This document shows positions 5,249 through 50,305 of a DNA stretch of 64,000 nucleotides, in pieces. The notes below the pieces were generated by a model that was not told where the DNA came from, did no database searches, and saw nothing but the letters and a program-made list of their open reading frames with translations. How positions within the stretch are numbered: position 1 is the stretch's first letter; every line of letters begins with the position of its first letter. The DNA is from Apostichopus japonicus (taxonomy: Eukaryota > Echinodermata > Holothuroidea > Aspidochirotida > Stichopodidae), in NCBI RefSeq assembly GCF_037975245.1, contig NC_092571.1:977501-1041500 (forward strand), in the 5' to 3' direction. The position numbers and the translations under genes are program-made.

Positions 5249-7937
5249 TCCCCCATCCCTCCCCGTACACCTCCCCATCCCTCCCAGTACAGCTCCCCAC
5301 CCCCGTTCACCTCCCCCATCCCTCCCAGTACAGCACCCCATCCATCCCAGTACACCTCCCCCATCCCTCCCAGTACAGCACCCCATCCCTCCCAGTACAG
5401 CACCCCATCCCTCCCAGTACAGCACCCCCATCCCTCCCAGTACACCTCCCCCACCCCTCCCAGTACAGCTCCCCCATCCCTCCCAGTACAGCTCCCCCAT
5501 CCCTCCCAGTACACCTCCCCCATCCCTCCCAGTACAGCACCCCCATCCCTCCCAGTACAGCATCCCCATCCCTCCTAGTACACCTCCCCCATCCCTCCCA
5601 GTACAGCACCCCCATTCCTCCCAGTACAGCTCCCCCACCCCTCCCAGTACAGCATCCCCATCCCTCCTAGTACAGCTCCCCCATCCTTCCCAGCCCCCAT
5701 CCCTCCCAGTACAGCACCCCCATCCCTCCTAGTACACCTCCCCCATCCCTCCCAGTACAGCACCCCCATTCCTCCCAGTACAGCTCCCCCACCCCTCCCA
5801 GTACAGCTTCCCCATCCCTCCCAGTACAGCTCCCCCATCCTTCCCAGCCCCCATCCCTCCCATTACAGCTCCCCCATCCTTCCCAGCCCCCATCCCTCCC
5901 AGTACAGCGCCCCCATCCCTCCCAGTACAGCTCCCCCATCCTTCCCAGCCCCCATCCCTCCCAGTACAGCTCCCCCATCCTTCCCAGCCCCCATCCCTCC
6001 CAGTACAGCTCCCCCATCCTTCCCAGCCCCCATCCCTCCCAGTACAGCATCCCCATCCCTCCTAGTACACCTCCCCCATCCCTCCCAGTACAGCACCCCC
6101 ATTCCTCCCAGTACAGCTCCCCCACCCCTCCCAGTACAGCTTCCCCATCCCTCCCAGTACAGCTCCCCCATCCTTCCCAGCCCCCATCCCTCCCATTACA
6201 GCTCCCCCATCCTTCCCAGCCCCCATCCCTCCCAGTACAGCTCCCCCATCCTTCCCAGCCCCCATCCCTCCCAGTACAGCACCCCCATCCTTCCCAGCCC
6301 CCATCCCTCCCAGTACAGCTCCCCCATCCTTCCCAGCCCCCATCCCTCCCAGTACAGCATCCCCATCCCTCCTAGTACACCTCCCCCATCCCTCCCAGTA
6401 CAGCACCCCCATTCCTCCCAGTACAGCTCCCCCACCCCTCCCAGTACAGCTTCCCCATCCTTCCCAGTACAGCTCCCCCATCCTTCCCAGCCCCCATCCC
6501 TCCCAGTACAGCTCCCCCATCCTTCCCAGCCCCCATCCCTCCCAGTACAGCTCCCCCATCCTTCCCAGCCCCCATCCCTCCCAGTACAGCATCCCCATCC
6601 CTCCCATTACAGCTTCCCCATCCTTCCCAGCCCCCATCCCTCCCAGTACAGCTCCCCCATCCTTCCCAGCCCCCATCCCTCCCAGTACAGCTCCCCCATC
6701 CTTCCCAGCCCCCATCCCTCCCAGTACAGCATCCCCATCCCTCCTAGTACACCTCCCCCATCCCTCCCAGTACAGCACCCCCATTCCTCCCAGTACAGCT
6801 CCCCCACCCCTCCCAGTACAGCTTCCCCATCCTTCCCAGTACAGCTCCCCCATCCTTCCCAGCCCCCATCCCTCCCAGTACAGCTCCCCCATCCTTCCCA
6901 GCCCCCATCCCTCCCAGTACAGCTCCCCCATCCTTCCCAGCCCCCATCCCTCCCAGTACAGCATCCCCATCCCTCCCATTACAGCTTCCCCATCCCTCCC
7001 AGTACAGCTCCCCCATCCTTCCCAGCCCCCATCCCTCCCAGTACAGCTCCCCCATCCTTCCCAGCCCCCATCCCTCCCAGTACAGCATCCCCATCCCTCC
7101 CAGTACAGCTCCCCCATCCTTCCCAGCCCCCATCCCTCCCAGTACAGCATCCTCATCCCTCCCATTACAGCTTCCCCATCCCTCCCAGTACAGCTCCCCC
7201 ATCCTTCCCAGCCCCCATCCCTCCCATTACAGCTCCCCCATCCTTCCCAGCCCCCATCCCTCCCATTACAGCTCCCCCATCCTTCCCAGCCCCCATCCCT
7301 CCCAGTACAGCTCCCCCATCCTTCCCAGCCCCCATCCCTCCCAGTACAGCTCCCCCATCCCTCCCATTACAGCTTCCCCATCCTTCCCAGCCCCCATCCC
7401 TCCCAGTACAGCTCCCCCATCCTTCCCAGCCCCCATCCCTCCCAGTACAGCATCCCCATCCCTCCCATTACAGCTTCCCCATCCTTCCCAGTACAGCTCC
7501 CCCATCCTTCCCAGCCCCCATCCCTCCCATTACAGCTCCCCCATCCTTCCCAGCCCCCATCCCTCCCAGTACAGCTCCCCCATCCTTCCCAGCCCCCATC
7601 CCTCCCAGTACAGCTCCCCCATCCCTCCCATTACAGCTTCCCCATCCTTCCCAGCCCCCATCCCTCCCAGTACAGCTCCCCCATCCTTCCCAGCCCCCAT
7701 CCCTCCCAGTACAGCATCCCCATCCCTCCCATTACAGCTTCCCCATCCTTCCCAGCCCCCATCCCTCCCAGTACAGCTCCCCCATCCCTCCCATTACAGC
7801 TTCCCCATCCTTCCCAGCCCCCATCCTTCCCAGTACAGCTCCCCCATCCTTCCCAGCCCCCATCCCTCCCATTACAGCTCCCCCATCCTTCCCAGCCCCC
7901 ATCCCTCCCAGTACAGCTTCCCCAGCCCTCCCAGGAC
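5249..7937. repeat. 2.7-kb C-rich minisatellite of 23-bp and 16-bp units
   Basis: The array is built from a 23-bp unit (CCTCCCAGTACAGCTCCCCCATC and variants) alternating with a 16-bp short unit (CTTCCCAGCCCCCATC). Together these make a 39-bp composite that dominates from about 5830 onward; the first ~400 bp are mainly the 23-bp unit. Larger blocks recur too: the series from TACAGCATCCCCATCCCTCCTAGTAC through TTCCTCCCAGTACAG appears near 5650, 6045, 6355 and 6730. The minus strand is long-open in several frames (WEGWG-type repeats), but this follows from the stop-free unit and does not indicate a gene. The minus strand is dense in GGG tracts. Confidence 0.96.
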
Positions 7938-11988: not shown

Positions 11989-14152
11989 TCATTCAGTATT
12001 GATTCCTCCTACGTCACGATGACGCATTGCGATAGGATCGATGGTTGCATAATTCGGATCAAAGGTACACACAGTAGAGTTTTGATAAGTTTGCGTCGGG
12101 CCAAGTGTGTCTGATTTCATGGGGACCATGTAACCTTCTGTTTCACTGGATTCGTCTGGGATTTGGGGTAAAGTCCCTATTCTACCACGCGGTTTACCGT
12201 ACGGATCTTCATAAGTATCATAATTGATTTCATCACTTTTGTTGTTTGCGTTTGTGTCGACCTTTCCGTGAAGCTGTGCCTTTATTTCAGAGCCACTGCA
12301 GTAACTGTTTAATTGAGATCGTTTACTCGACGTGTTGCTTGCCTTTTCAAGTTCCGACCCAACTGACATCGCAGAAAGCCGAGTCACCGCAGTGCGAAGT
12401 GAAGAACCACTTTCACATGTAGTAGATTTGGCAAACCTCATTCGGTGTCTCTCAGGGACAGGTTCAAAATGACCGAAAAATGTCTTGGACCTTGTCAACA
12501 CTCTTTTATGATAACAACAAAATATCAAAGTTAAAAATAGTGACGTGGCTAAAAATGTTACAAGGCAAGCCAGAAATATGGCTTTAGTTAACGTCGCCTG
12601 GGGGTTGAAACATTCTTTCAGCACGCCATCCTTTTCTTCTGCGACTTGTTGGTTTTTGTCACCATAGTGATTCGCAATGTTCTCCGTTGTCGTTGTTATG
12701 GTAGTGACGTCACGTTTTTTCTGAACTGAAATGTTAATGGCTAATGTAAAGGTTCCTGCAATGTTCGTTGCTTTACAAGTGTATCTGCCGGAGTCTTCAA
12801 CAGACGCCCTGGATAATATAAGAGCGCCATCTTCATCAACTGTCACTCGCTCTTGCAATTCTCTCAATTCGGTCCCGGGATCGATCCTAGTTCTGCTTGG
12901 AACTGAAGCCCCTGACGGACTTGACCAAACTAAAGATGGCGCTGGTTGACCTTTCACTTGAGGTTGAATAATCTTCTCCGCACCTTCTATTATCTCTACT
13001 GGTGTTTGAACCTGAAAATAGATGTTAAACTACTACGTGAATTTGTCATACAGATGCTTCTATTCTAAGAACAAAATTTGATGTTTTTGTTATGGAATAT
13101 GGATGGAAGGTCCCTTTAATATATCAGCATTTGGTGATTGAGTCATAAAGATAAGACTTTTTATAGCTATTGATCACAATGCGAAACTTAAATTATTCAA
13201 ACTCAAACTCTCCAACACAACATGCAAGATCAGACGAGATCAGATGTTTATTTATGATATAATGATAATATGTAAATTATGTAATATTCATACAGACCTA
13301 TTGTTCTTACCTGTGAAATAAAGGGTCGTGTGCACCTCAAAATTATCTGCTCAAATCTCAAATCTTTTCCCGCCAAATTAGCTGGTTCACTGCATGTTAC
13401 TGGGTCCTGGATTAGAGTTGAAATCAGCGAGCCATGCGCGCGCATCCACTGTCTGAAGAATTCCATTCTGCAGTCACATTGAAAGGGGTTCCGCGAAATT
13501 CCTAGTCGAGTCAGTTTAAGGACATCACCAAATATATCTGGAATATTTTGTAATTTATTTCTCTTCATTCGGAGAATCTTTAGCTCTCTGAGGGTCTGAA
13601 AGGCTGTTGGTGCTATTGTGTGTATTTGATTCCCGTCCATGTATAAATAATGAAGATGGGGCGAACCGTTGTATACCCCACCTGGCACAACGGTCAGCTT
13701 ATTATTGTTAAGGTTTAATAACATTAATCTTCTTAATCCATGGAATGACCCCGGTTCGATGAAACCGATTTTATTTTGCGCCAAAGAGAGATAGCGGAGT
13801 TTTTCTGCGCCAGCAAATGTTGTATACCGAATGTTTTCTAGAGCATTTGAGGAGAGTAGCAGTTTCGTCATGGCAACTAGCCCGACGAAGGCACCTGGCT
13901 CAACGACTGATATGTTGTTGTGCGCCAAATCAAGCGTCGTTACGTGATTGTATTCACGAAATACACCGGCTGGGATGTTGGTTATTTTGGCGTGTTGTAT
14001 TTGTAGGGCGGCTTGGTTACCCTGGTTAGGCGGTAATGTGCACCCCGGCGTGCGTCCGTTCAAACAGTCAGATAGCGCTGTCGTGGATGCCATGGTAATT
14101 ACACTTAGAAGGTAAATACACGTCAATTTGTAGTCAACCATCTTTGCAAGAA
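11989..14152 (-). CDS. Leucine-rich repeat and immunoglobulin domain transmembrane receptor
   Basis: Coding exons 14141-13311 and 13011-11989 join in phase 0 (CAG|GTAAGA ... TTTTCAG|GTT), giving 617 residues. Order: hydrophobic signal peptide (about 1-23), LRRNT cysteines in CLNGRTPGC, six LRRs (about 66-205), LRRCT starting NPFQCDC, one Ig domain (about 278-373), a TM helix (about 421-443) ending at CCYHKR, then a cytoplasmic tail of about 174 residues. Six LRRs plus one Ig resembles AMIGO or Kekkon-type adhesion receptors; the tail does not let me name an orthologue. The Ig domain keeps the F-strand Cys in YTCKATN (356) and the core Trp (306), but proline (294) sits where the B-strand Cys should be. 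The tail has YEDP, YGKP and YMVP (YxxP SH2-type sites), YQNS and YATI. The exon likely starts at 14152, after a polypyrimidine tract and TTTTACAG, so an upstream non-coding exon is expected. Confidence 0.88.
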
Positions 14153-15728
14153 CTGTAAAAGGAAAAGGAAGGAATATTAATTATAGTGGGGGATGTTTGA
14201 TAATTACGAACGGAACGTCCACAGGCCAATATAACCCACATGCTTAACTAGTACAAGGCACTGCAACTTTCTGTTGTCTCGGAAAGACGTTATAGCCTAT
14301 TAATATGTAGGCCAATTTGATTGTGATGGTCAATTCAGCAGCATACATATATATCTTGAAAGTTTAAAGTTCCTGAAGTATTCCTTGTTGACTAAACCGG
14401 GGTTTACCATCTCACTTTCGCTGACAATTAGTCTTTTTGCAGCCGTTATAATCTAATTTCCAGAATAATAAGCACAATTAGAGTTTAGTCATCCGTTTGA
14501 AGTGAATGTCAATCTTCCAGTTGATTAATTGGCAGCAAAATTAAAATTCTCCGGATCGGAACTGGGATTTCAATTTATTGCTAATGAAGTTGCAACCTTC
14601 TGGATTGTCTGTACGGATATCTGAAGAAATTGTGTCACATCCTGAATAAGTTGTCCAGTTAAATGTATAGGCTTGTGTATACGTAACCTCGAATGGTATA
14701 CGGAAAATGCCCATGCAGTCATTTCTCCTTTAAACATTTAGGTATTATCATATGTGTATTGTATCACCCCCTTTTTTTCTTTAAATAACGTCTTCCCTTA
14801 TTGTGCCCTTTTAGTGGTAGGGGATATTGTACACTCTCAAAATGCAAAAGTGCTAACACCATTAACACGGTTTTACCGTATTTAATAATAGCGTTAGGGT
14901 GGATAGTGTTGCTATAAGTAATTGGTCCACTCTCTACCATGCAGTCCCCGTACAACCACTGTTACTGTGTGATTATAACTGTGTTATTCGAGTGAGATAT
15001 CACAAGTCCATTCGAAAGGGATTAACTAATCTACACCACTTGGTGAAAGGTTGGTACGTGTAGTGCCGGATACTGATGTAATCGATAACACTGAAAATAT
15101 GGACTTTTCAAGTTTGCCTAATATATTATAATAATCATTCAGCCATTAAAATTCACATTTTCACAACACACTGAGTACACTCCCTTTACGTTTAACATAA
15201 CAAAAAAACAAATGCATATATTGCTAAGGCTCCAGAATTGATTACTATTTCGAAAAATGCATTGTTTAATTAAGTATTAATACCTCCTGGGGTTTTAAGT
15301 ATCTTTACCTTCTGTTTTTCAGGTAAACGCCTTGTTTACACGAATATTAATGAACCTATATACATGAAACAAAATTATGTATAAGAACCTATTTTGTGAT
15401 TTTAAATAAGGCCTATAGGCAAATTACGTTACACTGTACCGGAAAAGAGTTTCAGGCAAAATATTCAATTTGGGAAGTTTTCGGAAATGAAATTGCACAA
15501 TTATTACGTGTACCGAAATCGACAAGAGAATTTCGCTCGAAAGTATGATCATATTGAACATATTTATTGATTGAATACTTTGACATATTTAAACGAACTG
15601 ATGTTCCTTTCCCCCTGCAGATCTCGAATGGCGATGATACGCGCGTTATTATAGGTATAATCTGTAACACGTCATTCCATAATGAATGTTTTCTCAAATT
15701 TGAACTTTTCAGATAATTATTTACTTAC

Positions 15729-20633: not shown

Positions 20634-23600
20634 TCATTTTCTTACATAACCAGGAAAGAAGAAAAGTTTCTTCGTCAGCATGGTCACAGGGGCGGGCATC
20701 TGCTTGTTCTTCCCGGAGGATGACTCAAACGCTTTAGCAACTTTGGAGTTCACCTGTGTAAAAACAAAAACATGAACCCCCTTGATGAAAAACTGAATTT
20801 TTTATCTAAATTTCAAGAATGCAACTATTGGGGAAATAACTTCATGATTTCTTTACCATAACAAGGAAAAACAAATCCATGTCATCTTGGAAGCTTCAGA
20901 CTATACGTTCATATATTTAACAGTAATGTTGACAATTGAATGTCCTTGATGATAATAATATAATATATTATGTTTATTCTCTGCTTACCACTGGGAGCCA
21001 GTGCTTTATTGGATCCAAATCATTTGTAACATAGAAATTAGGGCCATTAATGGTTTTGTTTACCTGTTCATTGCCTTTTGGTTACTTATGTAACAGGATG
21101 GCTGTGCATTGTACTAGGCAGCATTCTTACATAATGTGAATCAATATGAGATGTGTACACGTCTCTGTGTTAGTCCTTGATCTGAGTTCTACTCGGGCAC
21201 TTCCAAAATACACTTGAAGACCAGAACTTAGCTAAACGGTGCTCTTCTTGGGAATTATTGTTTCTATTTATATACAAAGTGATACCCTTTACTTATGATA
21301 GGATGGTGATACCTTCACTAATGATAGGATGGTGATACCTTTACTTATGATAGGATAATGATACCTTCACTAATGATAGGATAGTGATACCTTTACTAAT
21401 GATAGGATAGTGATACCTTTACTAATGATAGGATAGTGATACCTTTGTTAACATTGAGAGTAAATCTTCAGATTGGCTGTACTCTAGGATGACCTCCGTT
21501 AAGGCTTGGATAAACCAACTGCCTCTTTCCGAGTTCCTCCAAGAAACATAACCTGAAAAGAAATTTGTCATTATAAAGTCTGGTTAATGCTGACTTAAAA
21601 AAAATAACGAAAGAAACAAAATCATGCATACCCAATGAAATTATGAAAGTCATACCTTAAACTTACACATTGGTGGTGCATTTCACATCAACATCGACTC
21701 ATCGCAAATATTCACTTAGGTATTACTTGATGGCCATGCTCCCTAAAATGGTTGTGCAGTATATTCCTATTTATATAATAAGGTAACTTGTAGCTCAGCT
21801 GAAAAGAAACTCACGGATAACGGCATGTTCCCCCCAGAGGTATACACATAAAACTAGGCTAGGCATGGGTACATATGCTATGGTGTTGATGTTAGCCAGC
21901 TGTAGACATGTTTTTTATAGTATTTAAGTGTTTGTGGTTGGTGTTAAGGAGCATGCTTATAAGACTGGAGAGGGTGTCTTCTCATGGTGCTTAAAACCTT
22001 GAATAGCAACTGAGTTCAAGTGCACAGAAGAAGATGTAAGTGGAGGGGGAGGGAGGGAGGAAGGCAAGAGGGTGGATCATCTATCCTAGAGCAAATCCTT
22101 GTTAGCTACTCCCATCTGACATCTCTTTTAGTTTGAAATGAGAAAACAAAAGATAAAGAATGTATACGTATACAGAGTACAAAATTTGACATTGGCATAT
22201 TTATTTACTCTAGTATAACTATAAAAATGTTCAAGAAAAGGAGTAAAAATAACATGTAAGGAATAAGAATAGAAATCAATTCCAAAGATTAAAAAAAAAT
22301 ACCCAAATGTTTGAAGGCAGCATGATGACTCACCAGGGACTGTAGCGTATGCAATCAACATGTCACTCATTGAAGGGACTTTACTACGAGCACTGGCAAA
22401 TGCATCTGGAGCCTCAAACTCCAGCCGTAGCATGGAATCCACCAGAGCATTCGCATCTTGGTCACCATTCTCTCTTGGAGGGGGCGCTGTTTCTTCTACG
22501 TAGCCAGCTCCAGTAGCATCAGTAGATTCAACACCTTTATCAAAGCGTTCTGGAAGGTCATGAAGATAAAAACTGTGAATTGTTAGACTGGACAAAAGCC
22601 TGGCCTTGTATCTTGTCGAATAAACCATACCCAAGGAGAGGAACCTCTTACTGCACCCGATTTCCATCTCCAGAAGTAGATATAAAAACTCTTTGAAAGG
22701 AGACATAAGACTTCACCTCTCCCAACTGATCCTACATCCTCCCAAAACTACCCAAATAAAACATATTCCAACACAATCACATGATATTAACATTGATGCA
22801 CAGAACTCCCCATAAAACATAGTCCAACACAATCACATGATATTAACATTGATGCACAGAATTCCCCATAAAACATAGTCCAACACAATCACATGATATT
22901 AACATTGATTCACAGAACTCCCCAGAACTAGACTCATTGTCATATTTCACAAAAGTTTTCACTGCGAACAGGAACATTTAAAACTTAGGCACGGAAGAGC
23001 GAGATTTCTGAGTTTTTGAAACCAGGAAGCCAAGTGAGGGTACAAGTAGCCTACCTCCTCTGCATGCCTGAAGGATGACAATCTTAGGTTTGCCAATGAG
23101 AGTCGGCGCTCGAGTAGCGTCAAAATACTTGAAGACATCTTCTACCGCAAGTTTCTTCTCATCCACCCCATAGAGGGCTCCCTCTACACCGTGTGTTAAT
23201 ATCGCTAATATTACACAGTCAAATGTTGAATGGTTCATCTTGGCAAACTCTCTAATGAATGTGGCCATTTCCTGCATGGTGAGAAGGGGGAATGGGGAAT
23301 GAAATTCTGATCATAAGTGATTACGACACGTTGATTATGAATAATAATGATAATAATAGGATGAGGTTTCTGTATGATTAACTTTCTTGTTTGCTAGTCT
23401 GGAATGGCTTTGATCTAGTTGGTGTTTCAAATATTGTGTGAGCTACTGGTTTTTAAAATGACGTCATCTGAGTTGGTAATAATTGCATATTGGCACATCC
23501 ATTTTGACTATTGAGATTGGAATAAGTCTCGGTCAAAACGAGAAGAGCACATTTGAGACACAACTGAACCATGAACAAGATGCTGCCAGGCTCAAGACCT

Positions 23601-26600
23601 CTGACTTTTACACATTTTTTCTGACACGGGTAGCAGGCTAGTTAAAACTCTTTTTGTTCTCAATCCAATATTAAAGCCAACAGTACCAGAAACTTTCACT
23701 TCGATTGGATTTAAAACTGCCGCCATGGCTGTCAGAAAAAGCAGTACAAAAACATGACAGAAATATTCATCTATTAGGAAGAAAGGAAGGATTAGCAGAT
23801 AAACTGACATATTACTGGGCATTGGCAGCTCCAGGACGACTAACAGCCACAGGATGACTCAAACAGGGAAGATAAGCTATGGGAATAATTAGTGTTTACA
23901 GTGGGAAACAGGTACCCAAGAGCCTTTACAACGACATGGAAGGCTGCCCTCCTAACAGGCTAACTTTACCAAAGCGGTTAGGTTGACTTTGGTATCCACA
24001 TTGAAGTGCAATTCTCTGAATATGTGGTGTAGATTTTTAGCGTCCACATCTGTCCCTTGTCGGGTCTTCATTGTGTAAAAGTCTCTGTTGTTTATTATCA
24101 GCGCTAAACCTCTTGGTTCTGAGCCCATTCGGTAAACCTCATGAGGAAGAGATGAAAGAGAAAAGAAAGAAGATAGAGAAGTCGTGACTCTCGGCTACTT
24201 TACCTGACCCTTCACATTTGTCTTGGTGTCTACATTGAATCCAAGTTCTTTGAAGACGTGATGTAGGTTTCGACCATCTACCTCCGTCCCTCGCCTCTCA
24301 GGCATTGTACGGAATTTCATATTGTTGATTATCAGTGCCAGACCTCTTGGATTAGATGACATACGATAAACCTTCGTGGATGAAATGCAAGTGTTGATGA
24401 GATGTCATGTGGGAATGTGGTCATGTGACAGTACGAAAGTTAAGATTGAGGGGTACCCATCAACGAACAGTAGAAACTCCTCTATCTGGAGGAATGCCAA
24501 CCTTCTCTTGATTTTTGTCTACGTTTTCAGAAAACAGAAAGAAATCAGTCCTATAATTTCTCAATTTTAAAAACTACTTTTGGTATTAACTTTCACAGCA
24601 AGCAAGACCAACTTGACTTGGATTCCCCCCCCCACTACACCCCCACCCCCTTCTAAGGAAAAGAAAATTTCCAGGTCTGACATGAATGGGTCTTCAAAAT
24701 CACACAACAGATACGGGCAGAAAAGGCATAACAGGACAACATTAAACAATGACATGAAAGTAATATATAACTAAGGAGGCTCAACAAAAACTGAACATGG
24801 AATACAATGAACACAAAATAAAGTAACAAAACAAAGTAACAAAACAAAGTAACAAAACAAGTAAACAAGGGTGAAATGAAATGAAGAAATCATTATGAAA
24901 CCAACAACGGACACACCAGTTTGGAATAAGTGAAGAGATTTGTTATCATATAAGTAACGGTACTGTTGCACAATGCCTCAGACTTTATGCATGTTGTTTA
25001 CTGTGTATTTGAAATACTGTTGTAGTATTACATTGTATCATGGTTTATCAATCATCCTTTCCATTGTTTATCTTTGAAACCTCCTCCAAAACCAAGTATT
25101 TCTCTCAGAATAAAACCTCCAAGGCCAAAGAAATTAAAGGTAACTGAAAGTTTGATTTTGAAGCCATTTACCAAAAAACCAAAGAAAATGGTTTGACCTA
25201 CAATTTAAAGCTGTGAAACTATTCACTGGATCTGGGGATGTTTTTTGCCTGTGCGTTGGAGAGACCTTGTTGAGTGAGTGTGAATGAACCTAAAAGCATG
25301 GCTTATAGAGCTTATACATAGAGATGGTCAAACAGTAACAAATTTAAATTATTCAGGGCCCTTTTACAAATTGCGGGATAGACACACGTAATGATTTGGC
25401 AACATCATATTAAGTTTGGGGATGCTGCTAGTCCAGGGATAGTGCACGAAACATGGAAATATAATCAGATACCACCATGCACGTCTGGAAACTATTCACC
25501 CATCTGTCTGTCTGTTATAATCAGTCTTGGCTCTGATTGGCTGATATAGAATCACATGACTTCCTTAAGAAAAGTTTTTATTGAAATTACCCATCATTTT
25601 TTATTGTATAGAGTTCTGCTGTTGCTAGTGAGTATGACTCATTGTCACTTTGGCAACTAACAAAGTGCTTATATGGTATATAAAATACAATGGATATTTT
25701 ATGCTTCAGGCTTAATTTGGATCCAATTTGGACAGTCCTAAAGGAAACAGATTGCAACACTTACCAATCTATCCAGGGGTCTCTTATATTGCAAGCATAT
25801 TTAATCATTCTTAATGTGTGTCATTACCACCCCTTGTCATCTTTACAAGACAAACTGTTAACATTACTATAAAACTTTTACCTTTGCAGTTATAGTTCAC
25901 TGTAAAAATGTGTTAACTTTGCACATTGTGAATGGAAACATTTGTTACCATCCACGGCGCAAAGTTTCCATTATTTATGACAATAAAATTAAAAAGAATT
26001 TGGGTAATAGAAAAAAAAAAGGAACCACATCATGAATCCCATTCTTTCAATGTTGTCACACGGTCTGTTGCGGGACTTACTACAAATATATATTTGTTTT
26101 TTCTTACAAGGTTTCGTTCTTGTTATTTGTAAAAGAGGCAGTGCAGTGTCTGCCATTGTCCCATATGTAAGGTTTCTATCACCTATAAATGGCCTAAAGC
26201 AACTATATTCCAAAATGTCCCACTTTGAATCATCCAGTCTTGGATAAGAGGCATTTTACTGTACATTTACCACTTTTCTACAGCAAGGTATTTCTGGACA
26301 GCCAAAGATCATTTCTCTGAAAGAAGGCAAAGTGCTGATATTGGTTAAGATAATCTGAGAATTTAAAATGTATGAAGTACTTTTTTGGAATTCTTACCTC
26401 ATTGCTATCAACCATTTCAGTTTTCACTGGGACTTTTGGTATGTGATACTGCTCCAACACTGCTGGGATGCCAGGATTTGGCCAGACACCAGCATCTGTG
26501 GATGGGTAGATATTAACAAAGTAAGCCACATACTTTTGTGATAAAAGTTATCTTCTTGTGTTATTTAGTCAATATTATTATTATCTTTCATTTGGTCAGG

Positions 26601-28606
26601 AATAAAATATCCACTGAACTATTCTGTAACAAAGCCTGCTTATCATAATCAATGCCATGGCTACTAGCTACGTTAGACAAACTTCTTACCGGTTGGTTGT
26701 GAAACAAGGCTTTCGGTCTGCATGGGTTCATAGTGTTGCTCACTTGGTTTTGTTGACGGCTGCGTGGTTTCCTTTTTCCGTATTGCCTCTGCCAGGTGGC
26801 CCTGACCTGCACTTGTCAGTGCACTTATGAATGCTTTGTAGGCTTTTGGCCCTCTTGTCTCGATACTGTTCAACAGAGCTTGATTTTGAGCCAGCTTCCC
26901 ACCTTTGGCCTATGAAATCAAAATATGTTTGAATGATTTGAAGCATTGTTTAACCAAACCAAAAACATTTCAAAGTAACTCACAACACCAATCCTTTAAA
27001 GGCATGGGGACGGTTTCTGGATTTCACATACTGTCCCCACACCGTATTGAAGCCATTATTAGAAAATCAAGTGGTATGATCGGGGAAATTCAGTCCTACT
27101 AACAGCTTCTAGAGGTTAAACTAGACAAGATTATGCATGATGATGGCCACCCACTTTGTGTGCCTCTGGACCCTTAATCCCTCAAAGTGGTAGGATGTGG
27201 TTGCCATTTGCCGGTACAAATCGACACTCCTCCTCCTTTATTTCACAATGTATAAAACTTTATAACTTAAATTTCAAACACTAGATCTTGCCTACTTGTT
27301 AGGACTGTTCTGGTCTCTTGCCTTGTTCATTGTATTGTTTTAGGATTGTTTGTGGATGTCACTATAATTTATATACCTTTGTATACTGTCTACTGTTTCA
27401 TGCAAGCATTTACCTTTTTGGATTTAAAAAAGTTGATCTTATCTTATATTATATGTCTCCATATTTTAAACTAGAACTGTATCTATCCCCAAATTTGCAG
27501 AAAGGACCTAAATAAATCGAAATGTCAATTTCATCAGTTTGGCCTTCTGTTGGTAGAAAGAGCTTGAATGTAACCAGTGATTGGTTACAATTAAAATCTG
27601 GATTGGGTGTTTTAAATTAAATTAACAATCATCCTTGAACACGGAACCACCAAAAACACTGAGATGCCCCGAAAATTCCACCCTCCCTTTCACATAGAGG
27701 AGGTAATTCACTCTTGAGGTCAACATGAGCAAGGTCAACATCAATATCAAGTGCCAAATGTCCTATAAATAGTAAGATCACATATGCTATTCAGTACAAC
27801 TGAAAATAGCAAGTAAATGTATAAGTTTGCACATTACTAACACAGAAGGTTTACATCTTTCCCACTGTTCCATGCTCACTAAAAACAGCAGGAATAATTT
27901 CTGTAGAGATTTAACTTCCCTACCCAGAAGGTACTGCACTGATGGGCTTCACATAGAGCTCTAATACTTGTTGATTTCCATACATGAAACACCTTAAATC
28001 TGTCTTTTGCTTTTCTGCAACAATGGCTTATGGTATTGTAAAATGATAAATTTCAAGAAACAATTTGTGCAAACATTCAACTCTTTAAATGACAATCATG
28101 AGAAAGCTACTGTTTTGATAAAGTAAAGTATAATGGTAATTCTTTTCAAATCACCAATTGAAAGGTTTCATAACATCTTGATAGCAACTGTATTTGACAA
28201 CATGAATCTACTTCAATGGCAACTTGTTAAGATAATTCAAAATGTTAATGTACTTCAATGTTAAAAAATGAAAAGAAAACAAAACACTTGTTGAAAAAGG
28301 GAAAAAGGGACCCTGCCCCCCCCCCTCCCCACTGAATTGCATAAAGTCAGTTTGTCTTTAATTGACCTGAATGTGACAATTTATAAAATGTTTACTATGT
28401 TTAGCTTTCCTTCCATCTATATGTAAGTTATGTACAAACAATATTAAAGGTTTATTGGGTTAGTTCTCTCTCACCTTGAATGTATCTGACATAAATGGTT
28501 CATATATTCCATCCTGAATCAGGGAAGGCATCACTAACTCAAGTTCCAAATCTTTGCTCAAGATAACATAGTTGGCACGAATTGCTTTCCTGTGAAGGTC
28601 CTCCAT
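20634..28606 (-). CDS. CASP2-like: CARD-containing initiator caspase, caspase-2-like
   Basis: Coding exons in transcript order: 28606-28475, 26909-26690, 26495-26398, then 24371-24204 or 24137-23970 (alternatives), 23271-23055, 22549-22334, 21552-21443, 20753-20634. All junctions are GT-AG with matching phases and give 426 residues (1281 nt with TGA at 20636-20634). The N-terminal CARD (1-~92) matches caspase-2 best in RANYVILSK, the FKAK stretch, ETRGPKAYKAF and GQGHLAEAI. A linker leads to p20 with VYRM.S.PRGLALIINN, catalytic His233 in THGVEGALYGVD and Cys276 in QACRG. The p10 part has SDMLIAYATVPG, YVSWRN and GSWFIQAL, and the end LFFFPGY resembles caspase-2's LYLFPGH. The family is a cysteine protease cleaving after Asp, activated by CARD-driven dimerisation (PIDD1/RAIDD in vertebrates). 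Length and catalytic residues are intact, so it should be active. Caspase-9 is the alternative; HGVEG.YGVD and VYRM favour caspase-2. Confidence 0.92.
21279..21450. repeat. 26-bp tandem array overlapping the caspase exon 7 splice donor
   Basis: Units start at 21279 (27 bp), 21306, 21332, 21358, 21384 and 21410, with a partial unit at 21436 that runs into the coding exon. The unit is GTGATACCTTTACTAATGAT plus AGGATA. Read on the minus strand, each contains AAAG or GAAG followed by GTATCA, the same sequence as the real donor at 21443/21442. Confidence 0.93.
22755..22924. repeat. ~56-bp direct repeat, three copies, in a caspase intron
   Basis: Three near-identical units begin at about 22755, 22812 and 22868, each with CCAACACAATCACATGATAT followed by TAACATTGATGCACAGAA. 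They lie in the intron between 22550 and 23054. No function is apparent. Confidence 0.9.
23970..24137 (-). CDS. CASP2-like: Caspase alternative p20 exon B
   Basis: Also 168 nt, 56 codons, phase 0 at both ends, from acceptor CCTCATGAG|GTT to donor TTG|GTAAAG. It encodes VYRMGSEPRGLALIINN, then RDFYTMKTRQGTDVD and a segment ending VNLTAL. Stop-free and with intact splice sites, it keeps the conserved core and the S1-type Arg, while changing residues in the L1 loop and the last five residues. The two exons are separated by 66 nt. Including both would keep frame but duplicate a core strand, which should wreck the fold. Confidence 0.86.
24204..24371 (-). CDS. CASP2-like: Caspase alternative p20 exon A
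   Basis: The exon is 168 nt, 56 codons, phase 0 at both ends, from acceptor CCACGAAG|GTT to donor CAG|GTAAAG. It encodes VYRMSSNPRGLALIINN, then MKFRTMPERRGTEVD and a segment ending TNVKGQ. This covers the first strand of p20 and the following L1 loop. Arg at exon position 26 aligns with the S1-pocket arginine of caspases (R64 of caspase-3). It shares 37 of 56 residues with exon B. Its ending VKGQ joined to EMATFIREFA resembles the usual family sequence, so I take it as the ancestral-type form. Confidence 0.88.
28030..28205 (+). repeat. Dispersed repeat, copy 1 (inverted partner at 37219-37397)
   Basis: Starting TATGGTATTGTAAAA and containing CATGAGAAAGCTACTGTTTT, this ~176-bp block is found in reverse complement at 37219-37397 with only scattered differences. 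It is an unclassified interspersed element. Confidence 0.85.
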
Positions 28607-48265: not shown

Positions 48266-48980
48266 CCCTCATGAATTATCCAGAACAAACAAAACACCAT
48301 GCTCTGTTTATAAAGTCAAGTGGAACTTTTAATGCGGCTTGGAGTTAACTGCGGTAACTAATATCCCAATTTGGATTTTATGACTAAGTAACGTCAGCCA
48401 TTTGAAAGATCTTAGCAAAGTTCAAAGTCTCTCTTCCAGTAAATAATTTTTCCAACTTTGACATTTAGGAGAGTGGCGTTGGTTTCCTTTTCGAGACTGC
48501 TCGGTCAGATATTTAAAAGAAAATGTTGGTAGATTGATCTATTGTCCGGTGCTCGGCTTGGTTTGAAATATAGCTTGCATTAAATTATTAAACACAAAGT
48601 AAATATTGATCAGGAATTGTTTTTGGCTTTTAAACCAATTGACGTACAGAGTCATATGTAGGATGATGTCAATGGAAATGGATCAAGTCAAATTTAAAAT
48701 CAACTTGAGCAATTGGAGGTATTATTTTTTTTATATCGAAGAACCAAGAACGTTTGGTATGAAATCTTCGCTCCAGCACAGATCTGACCCTGCTGTCTTT
48801 ACAATTAAGGACAAACATAAAAAGAGTCAATATTGTGGATTATAACAAAGGAGGAAGTTCATAAACAAAAATATTTTGTCATATAGATTTGAAAATATTG
48901 TTTATTTGTTGTCGATGTGTGAGGTAAGCCCTCAGCATACTGCTGGACTCATCACGACCGGACTCAACTCCAGCGTCAGG

Positions 48981-50305
48981 CAGTGATTAGCAGCAGCTTT
49001 TACCCTTTCACTATGAATGGCAGTGTATAGCGGCAGCCTTTACCCTTTCACTATGCTGGCAGTGTATAGCGGCAGCCTATACCCATTAACTATGGTGGCA
49101 GTGATTAGCAGCAGCCTTTACCCTTTCACTATGATGGCAGTGTATAGCGGCAGCCTTTACCCTTTCACTATGCTGGCAGTTTATAGCGGCAGCCTTTACC
49201 CTTTCACTATGCTGGCAGTGTATAGCAGCAGCCTTTATCCTTTCACTATGCTGGAAGTGTATGGCGGCAGCCTTTACCCTTTCACTATGTGGCAGTGTAT
49301 AGCTGCAGCCTTTACCCTCTCACTATGCTGGCAGTGTATAGCAGCAGCCTTTATCCTTTCACTATGCTGGCAGTATATGGCGGCAGCCTTTACCCTTTCA
49401 CTATGCTGGCAGTTTATAGCGGCAGCCTTTACCCTTTCACTATGCTGGCAGTGTATAGCAGCAGCCTTTATCCTTTCACTATGCTGGAAGTGTATGGCGG
49501 CAGCCTTACCCTTTCACTATGTGGCAGTGTATAGCGGCAGCCTTTACCCTCTCACTATAATGGCAGTGTATAGAGGCAGCCTTTACCCTTTCACTATGAT
49601 GGCAGTGTATAGCGGCAGCCTTTATCCTTTCACTATGCTGGCAGTGTATAGCGGCAGCCTTTACCCTTTCACTATGCTGGCAGTGTATAGCGGCAGCCTT
49701 GACCCTCTCACTATAATGGCAGTGTATAGAGGCAGCCTTTACCCTTTCACTATGATGGCAGTGTATAGCGGCAGCCTTGACCCTTTCACTATGATGGCAG
49801 TGTATAGCGGCAGCCTTGACCCTTTCACTATGATGGCAGTGTATAGCGGCAGCCTTGACCCTTTCACTATGATGGCAGTGTATAGCGGCAGCCTTGACCC
49901 TTTCACTATGATGGCAGTGTATAGCGGCAGCCTTGACCCTTTCACTATGCTGGCAGTGTATAGCGGCAGCCTTGACCCTTTCACTATGCTGGCAGTGTAT
50001 AGCGGCAGCCTTGACCCTTTCACTATGATGGCAGTGTATAGCGGCAGCCTTGACCCTTTCACTATGATGGCAGTGTATAGCGGCAGCCTTGACCCTTTCA
50101 CTATGCTGGCAGTGTATAGCGGCAGCCTTGACCCTTTCACTATGCTGGCAGTGTATAGCGGCAGCCTTTACCCTTTCACTATGCTGGCAGTGTATAGCGG
50201 CAGCCTTTACCCTTTCACTATGCTGGCAGTGTATGGCGGCAGCCTTTACCCTTTCACTATGCTGGCAGTGTATAGCGGCAGCCTTTACCCGTTTCACTAT
50301 GCTGC
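48981..50305. repeat. 39-bp minisatellite, about 34 copies, open in several frames
   Basis: The unit is GGCAGTGTATAGCGGCAGCC plus TTTACCCTTTCACTATGCT. Since 39 bp is 13 codons, stop-free frames persist on both strands: LAVYSGSLYPFTM-type on plus, VKAAAIHCQHSER-type on minus. Single-unit indels near 49287 and 49505 shift the plus frame between two readings, which argues against selection for a protein. It lies in the presumed CAMTA intron, with no splice sites framing it. A run of ten units between about 49770 and 50150 shares TTGACCC in place of TTTACCC, a sign of local amplification. Confidence 0.95.

Follow-up and report, generated by a model that had tools for sequence, protein, structure and literature searches.

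Structure of the locus

The window analyzed here (the whole 64,000-nt stretch of the Apostichopus japonicus genome, NC_092571.1, positions 977,501 to 1,041,500) contains a complete CARD-caspase gene on its minus strand, extending from 28606 to 20634, with GT-AG boundaries at all junctions. The coding part of E1 (28475..28606, 132 nt) holds the start codon and the first part of the CARD; translation from this predicted start yields 426 aa, the length published for AjCASPX1. The CARD is completed in E2 (26690..26909, 220 nt) and followed in E3 (26398..26495) by a linker upstream of p20, which ends in SNE at the donor GAG/gtaagaat. Next come two copies of a p20 exon, each of 168 nt and phase 0/0. 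The first, E4A (24204..24371), has the donor CAG/gtaaag and an acceptor in which 65% of the 20 scored bases are pyrimidines; the second, E4B (23970..24137), has a long pyrimidine tract and the weak donor TTG/gtaaag. The 66 nt between them (24138..24203) comprise the E4A donor and the E4B acceptor, including a 48-nt AG-free zone; here pyrimidines make up 90% of the 20 scored bases. E5 (23055..23271) starts with EMATF and encodes the part of p20 that carries the catalytic His in LTHG (residue 233) and the catalytic Cys in QACRG (residue 276). The intersubunit linker and the start of p10 are encoded by E6 (22334..22549), p10 with SWRN and GSWFI by E7 (21443..21552), and the end of p10 and the stop codon by E8 (20634..20753).

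A first-pass annotation of this DNA had reported the two homologous exons; their minus-strand coordinates, equal length, phase 0/0 and AG/GT flanks were confirmed. Its further proposal, that either copy fits between the exon ending in SNE (26398) and the exon starting with EMATF (23271), also holds: E1-E3, followed by E4A or E4B and then E5-E8, form a single open frame of 426 aa. The frame is kept as well when both copies are included (482 aa) or when neither is (370 aa).

Several other features were observed in the window. The donor of E7 borders an array of 26-nt tandem repeats (21278-21446; 6.5 copies, 91% matches), the unit of which contains the E7 donor sequence AAAGGTATC; two such sites are visible, so that the array repeats the splice site. 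Past the 3' end of the caspase gene, open frames with LRR and Ig domains on the minus strand (11992-14180) probably represent an LRR-Ig receptor gene. Two minisatellites, one with a 39-nt unit in 34 copies (48979-50304) and one with a 23-nt unit in about 129 copies (5249-7934), have long open frames on both strands, of up to 477 aa and up to 792 aa, respectively. Elsewhere in the assembly, several COX1 pieces were located on G000:C29:14745-31219, in addition to the mitochondrial contig C35; they may reflect either mitochondrial DNA within the nuclear assembly or a remnant of the assembly process. When the mitochondrial contig is translated with table 5, Lys stands at sites where animals conserve Asn, and Met at sites where they conserve Ile, in line with the echinoderm code; its gene order is that of sea urchins and sea cucumbers. 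Bindin is also encoded in the assembly, but since it occurs outside sea urchins too, it does not point to a particular class.

Comparison of the two exon copies

E4A and E4B, both stop-free, are 66% identical in protein (37 of 56 residues) and 64% identical in DNA (107 of 168 nucleotides), a similarity well beyond chance (tblastn E 6e-23). Each copy alone matches the caspase profile PF00656 (46.5 bits for E4A, 47.4 bits for E4B). A DNA search located the 451-base stretch containing both copies at a single place in the assembly, and no third copy stood out in a tblastn search across the window.

By alignment with caspase-3, exon 4 spans the start of p20, the L1 loop and the S1 arginine, and continues onward to the next exon; the structural names used for it (L1 loop, S1 Arg, and the helix and strand that follow) are those of the caspase fold. 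The arginine of caspase-3 TSRSG, known as Arg64 of the S1 pocket, aligns with residue 26 of either copy (within PERRG in E4A and KTRQG in E4B), so the S1 arginine is kept in both, as had been claimed. The four residues around this retained arginine read P-E-R-R in E4A and K-T-R-Q in E4B. The first-pass annotation had also located the differences between the copies in the L1 loop and at the exon end. Five of the six final residues do differ, and L1 has a higher density of changes (6 of 10 positions vs. 13 of 46 elsewhere), with the clustering in L1 suggestive only (one-sided Fisher p = 0.063).

Coding constraint on both copies

Between the copies pN is 0.24 and pS 0.79, although only 6 of 14 four-fold sites differ. 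Differences by codon position number 15, 14 and 32 (p = 0.0065), a distribution that, taken alone, is compatible with neutral drift of one copy. Loss of frame by stop codons was tried as a test of constraint and rejected: after 30 or 61 neutral changes, the simulated copy was still stop-free in 16-43% of runs. Because stop codons alone made such a poor test, the copies were scored instead against a profile of the exon family, built from 14 paralogous exons of the A. japonicus genome plus CED-3, insect caspase-1 and caspase-3, with E4A and E4B themselves excluded. E4A scored 77.7 bits and E4B 74.3 bits. Neutral decay was then simulated from either copy with 20, 30 or 43 base changes, accepting stop-free outcomes only (six sets of 1,000). 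The score of the other copy was reached in 0 of 6,000 decays, the best attaining 71.7 bits. Since neutral decay does not preserve the family score, E4A and E4B are both coding exons under constraint.

Geometry of splicing between the copies

The 66-nt intron between E4A and E4B is short by the standard of its surroundings. The shortest of the gene's eight other counted introns is 194 nt, and the shortest of 28 introns sampled from caspase and myosin matches is 183 nt; the latter sample is small, was paired by hand with ends accurate to some tens of bases and with further pairs unused, and very short introns may exist elsewhere in the genome. Within the AG-free zone, adenines occur at intron positions 19, 22, 30 and 51, plus one at position 62, only 4 nt from the acceptor. 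Of the adenines at a usable distance, the one at position 51, which is 15 nt from the acceptor, has the best context by simple branch-site criteria.

A steric limit on the distance from donor to branch point has been placed near 50 nt, and in exons 4a and 4b of OGDH, exclusivity is described as enforced by branch points located 25-41 nt past the donor (PMC7969005). A survey of human exons likewise set the limit at 50 bp; by that measure, 57 of its clusters (9%) were potential cases of steric interference (PMC5740500). The candidate adenines at positions 19, 22, 30 and 51 are all at or under the threshold of about 50 nt (PMC7969005). With an intron of 66 nt and candidate branch adenines so close to the donor, joining of the two copies should be blocked. 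As the adenine of best context (position 51) sits right at the steric limit, we consider such a block likely rather than certain.

Retention of the 66 nt would introduce an in-frame stop. Inclusion of both copies and skipping of both are each in frame, so decay of faulty mRNA would clear neither product. A search for docking/selector pairing, as in control by RNA structure, found short inverted repeats between E3 and E5 (best perfect match 12 nt among the 25 longest of 36 repeats), judged by eye, without shuffles, to be at chance level, and such control was rejected. The donors of the two copies differ in strength, scoring 0.0 for E4B and 3.6 for E4A on a generic matrix.

Identity of the gene

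Membership of the caspase family is clear from profile matches. The A form (426 aa) scored 222.9 bits against Peptidase_C14 and the catalytic region of the B form (276 aa) 223.8 bits, with a cut-off of 21.4; the N-terminal CARD (residues 7-88) scored 40.7 bits against PF00619, with a cut-off of 23.9. The hallmarks of a caspase are present: H233, C276 in QACRG, the S1 arginine in either copy of exon 4, and GSWFI. CED-3 is the best relative of solved structure by sequence, with E values of 2.3e-63 (form A) and 2.7e-56 (catalytic region of form B).

The gene had been described at first pass as caspase-2-like, a label that we have replaced. The p10 encoded by E7 contains SWR (SWRNSERGSWFI), which marks the caspase-9 lineage in a published classification, whereas a p10 lacking SWR marks caspase-2 (PMC11121444). 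Given SWR and GSWFI, CED-3 as best solved relative, and the placement of AjCASPX1 in the CASP9 lineage (PMC11121444), the description caspase-9/CED-3-like fits better. In place of the vertebrate caspase-9 motif QACGG the gene has QACRG, which is also the active site of Hl-CASP9 from Holothuria leucospilota (PMC9330033).

The published A. japonicus caspase AjCASPX1 is a 426-aa protein with CARD and p20/p10, containing QACRG, SWR and a fully conserved GSWFI; it induced apoptosis of human cells with activation of CASP3/7, and its authors assigned it to the CASP9 lineage (PMC11121444). The gene described here matches it in length, in CARD and p20/p10, and in all three motifs. An assembly-wide search for the pattern WRN-x3-GSWFI within one exon returned an exact match at E7 only; such a search would miss a motif interrupted by an intron. 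On published length and motifs, the gene is very probably AjCASPX1. The published mass and pI are each slightly off both predicted isoforms. These two properties were also considered as guides to which copy the published cDNA contains, and were rejected: the mass of 47.52 kDa is nearer B (47.47) than A (47.41) without an exact match, and the pI of 6.58, in conflict with the mass, is nearer A (6.74) than B (6.19). The main text of the paper makes no mention of isoforms or exons (PMC11121444).

The homolog Hl-CASP9 is 420 aa in length, with His228 and Cys271 (PMC9330033) where our gene of 426 aa has residues 233 and 276. Its motifs HSNFDCVALAILTHG and KPKIIILQACRG are identical to ours at 13 of 15 and 11 of 12 positions, respectively, when counted by eye. 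Splicing, isoforms and exons go unmentioned in the main text of that paper (PMC9330033). The published lengths of AjCASPX1 (426 aa) and Hl-CASP9 (420 aa) fit the presence of one copy of exon 4, rather than two or none.

Origin of the duplication

Fourteen other caspase genes with matches to the start of the domain were inspected within fetched stretches of 2.4-6.4 kb, and each contained one convincing copy of the exon; by its definition, this set omits caspase matches that miss the profile start (for example, on contigs C16, C17 and C20). One weak extra match of 54 nt among the 14 genes (at L044; E 0.018) was attributed to chance. Many caspase exons lie on one contig (G000:C1:13824648-14392390), and their number there suggests expansion of other A. 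japonicus caspases by gene duplication, in contrast to the exon duplication in this initiator.

In a tree of the exon (54 columns; the 14 paralogs plus three solved caspases), E4A and E4B grouped together weakly (71/75). The 40-base stretches following the two donors were more alike than shuffled sequences (p = 0.027). However, this signal vanished when the donor hexamer was removed (p = 0.76), and a footprint of the duplication in the flanking introns was rejected. No such footprint exceeded shuffles in the acceptor flanks (p = 0.15).

Proposed and alternative explanations

We consider it probable that this gene, a CARD initiator caspase of caspase-9/CED-3 type and very probably AjCASPX1, carries a duplicated p20 exon of which each mRNA receives E4A or E4B, through steric blocking by the 66-nt intron and competition between splice sites. 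One p20 exon would have been duplicated in tandem long ago, and mature mRNAs carrying one or the other copy would now give rise to two 426-aa caspases. The two forms would have in common the CARD, the catalytic His and Cys, and p10, and would differ at 19 residues around the wall of the S1 pocket and the L1 loop. Joining of E4A to E4B would be prevented by an intron that puts the branch adenine too near the E4A donor for the spliceosome, and the choice between copies could be set by competition, E4A having the weaker acceptor and better donor, E4B the long pyrimidine tract and weak donor. That each mRNA would contain one copy of exon 4 is well supported, as the lengths, phases, coding constraint, 66-nt geometry and published cDNA lengths all agree; to this extent the mutual exclusivity proposed at first pass is supported. 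What the sequence shows are the exons, the frame, the constraint and the geometry, from which we infer the splicing outcome, its regulation and any effect on substrate choice or activation. The accompanying proposal of two initiator caspases is plausible, given the common CARD and catalytic His and Cys and the S1 arginine in both copies; that they would behave differently is a further step. From the position of the exon we hypothesize that the A and B forms prefer different substrates.

It seems unlikely that splicing normally takes in a single copy, with the other one seldom used or silenced not long ago. The weak donor of E4B would fit such a history, as would the single form described in each of the papers on homologous cDNAs (PMC11121444, PMC9330033), but E4A and E4B match the caspase profile to a similar degree, both retain stop-free frames and splice dinucleotides, and none of the simulated decays matched them, with the reservation that silencing in the very recent past would not show. 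Less probable again is the use of the copies as independent cassettes, joined into a protein of 482 aa in which the start of p20 occurs twice, or both skipped to leave a 370-aa protein lacking exon 4. Such use is consistent with the frame being kept in all combinations; it is opposed by an intron far shorter than any of the 28 sampled, by candidate branch adenines at or under the steric limit, by published cDNA lengths that fit a single copy, and by a caspase fold that would presumably have no room for a second start of p20. An artefact in which two alleles of one exon were assembled in tandem is extremely improbable: we found no point in its favor, the copies are far too diverged for alleles in protein, DNA and pS alike, they occupy one location in the assembly, the window contains no N, and HiFi reads underlie the published A. 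japonicus assembly (PMC10344927).

Relation to known systems and implications

E4A and E4B are homologous, neighboring, of equal phase, and compatible with both flanking exons, as expected of mutually exclusive tandem exons. Tandem duplicated exon substitution events are known from PKM (PMC9741552), from exons 4a and 4b of OGDH (PMC7969005) and from exon 5 of SNAP25, where homologous neighboring exons similarly exchange a single segment while the rest of the protein stays the same, and OGDH resembles our gene further in its intervening intron, with branch points close to the donor (PMC7969005). None of these proteins is a caspase; the piece that would be swapped in the A. japonicus gene belongs to the active-site wall of a protease. 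Human caspase-2 offers another likeness, in that splicing alters the product of an initiator-caspase gene; there, however, a cassette exon yields pro- and anti-apoptotic mRNAs with long and short isoforms (PMC8003524), rather than a choice between homologous catalytic exons.

Among the open-access matches listed, a set that leaves subscription journals mostly outside, we found no caspase in which homologous exons are used in a mutually exclusive way, and the first-pass remark that none had been described goes uncontradicted there. A study of amphioxus caspases makes no mention of splicing, isoforms or exons (PMC3196919), the main texts of two surveys of human exons do not mention caspases (PMC5740500, PMC9741552), and a paper on duplicated exons in U2AF1 names a caspase in passing (PMC5224494). 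Exclusive tandem exons are thus a known kind; their use to swap the groove wall of a caspase appears undescribed within those open-access matches.

If both forms are made, they would constitute a natural experiment, in which the same CARD and catalytic dyad are combined with one swapped groove wall, and any differences in substrate, dimerization or activation would map to 19 residues. There would also be a control point over an initiator of apoptosis at the level of splicing. Diversification of caspases in animals usually proceeds by gene duplication; in the present gene, duplication of an exon seems to have diversified an initiator caspase inside its catalytic domain. Sea cucumbers are known for autolysis and regeneration. 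We offer as a tentative idea, one that may well prove wrong, that exchange of a groove-wall exon lets one initiator-caspase gene alter its substrate preference or its threshold of activation, with the 66-nt spacer enforcing the choice, and that such a specificity switch may act in echinoderm cell death or innate defence.
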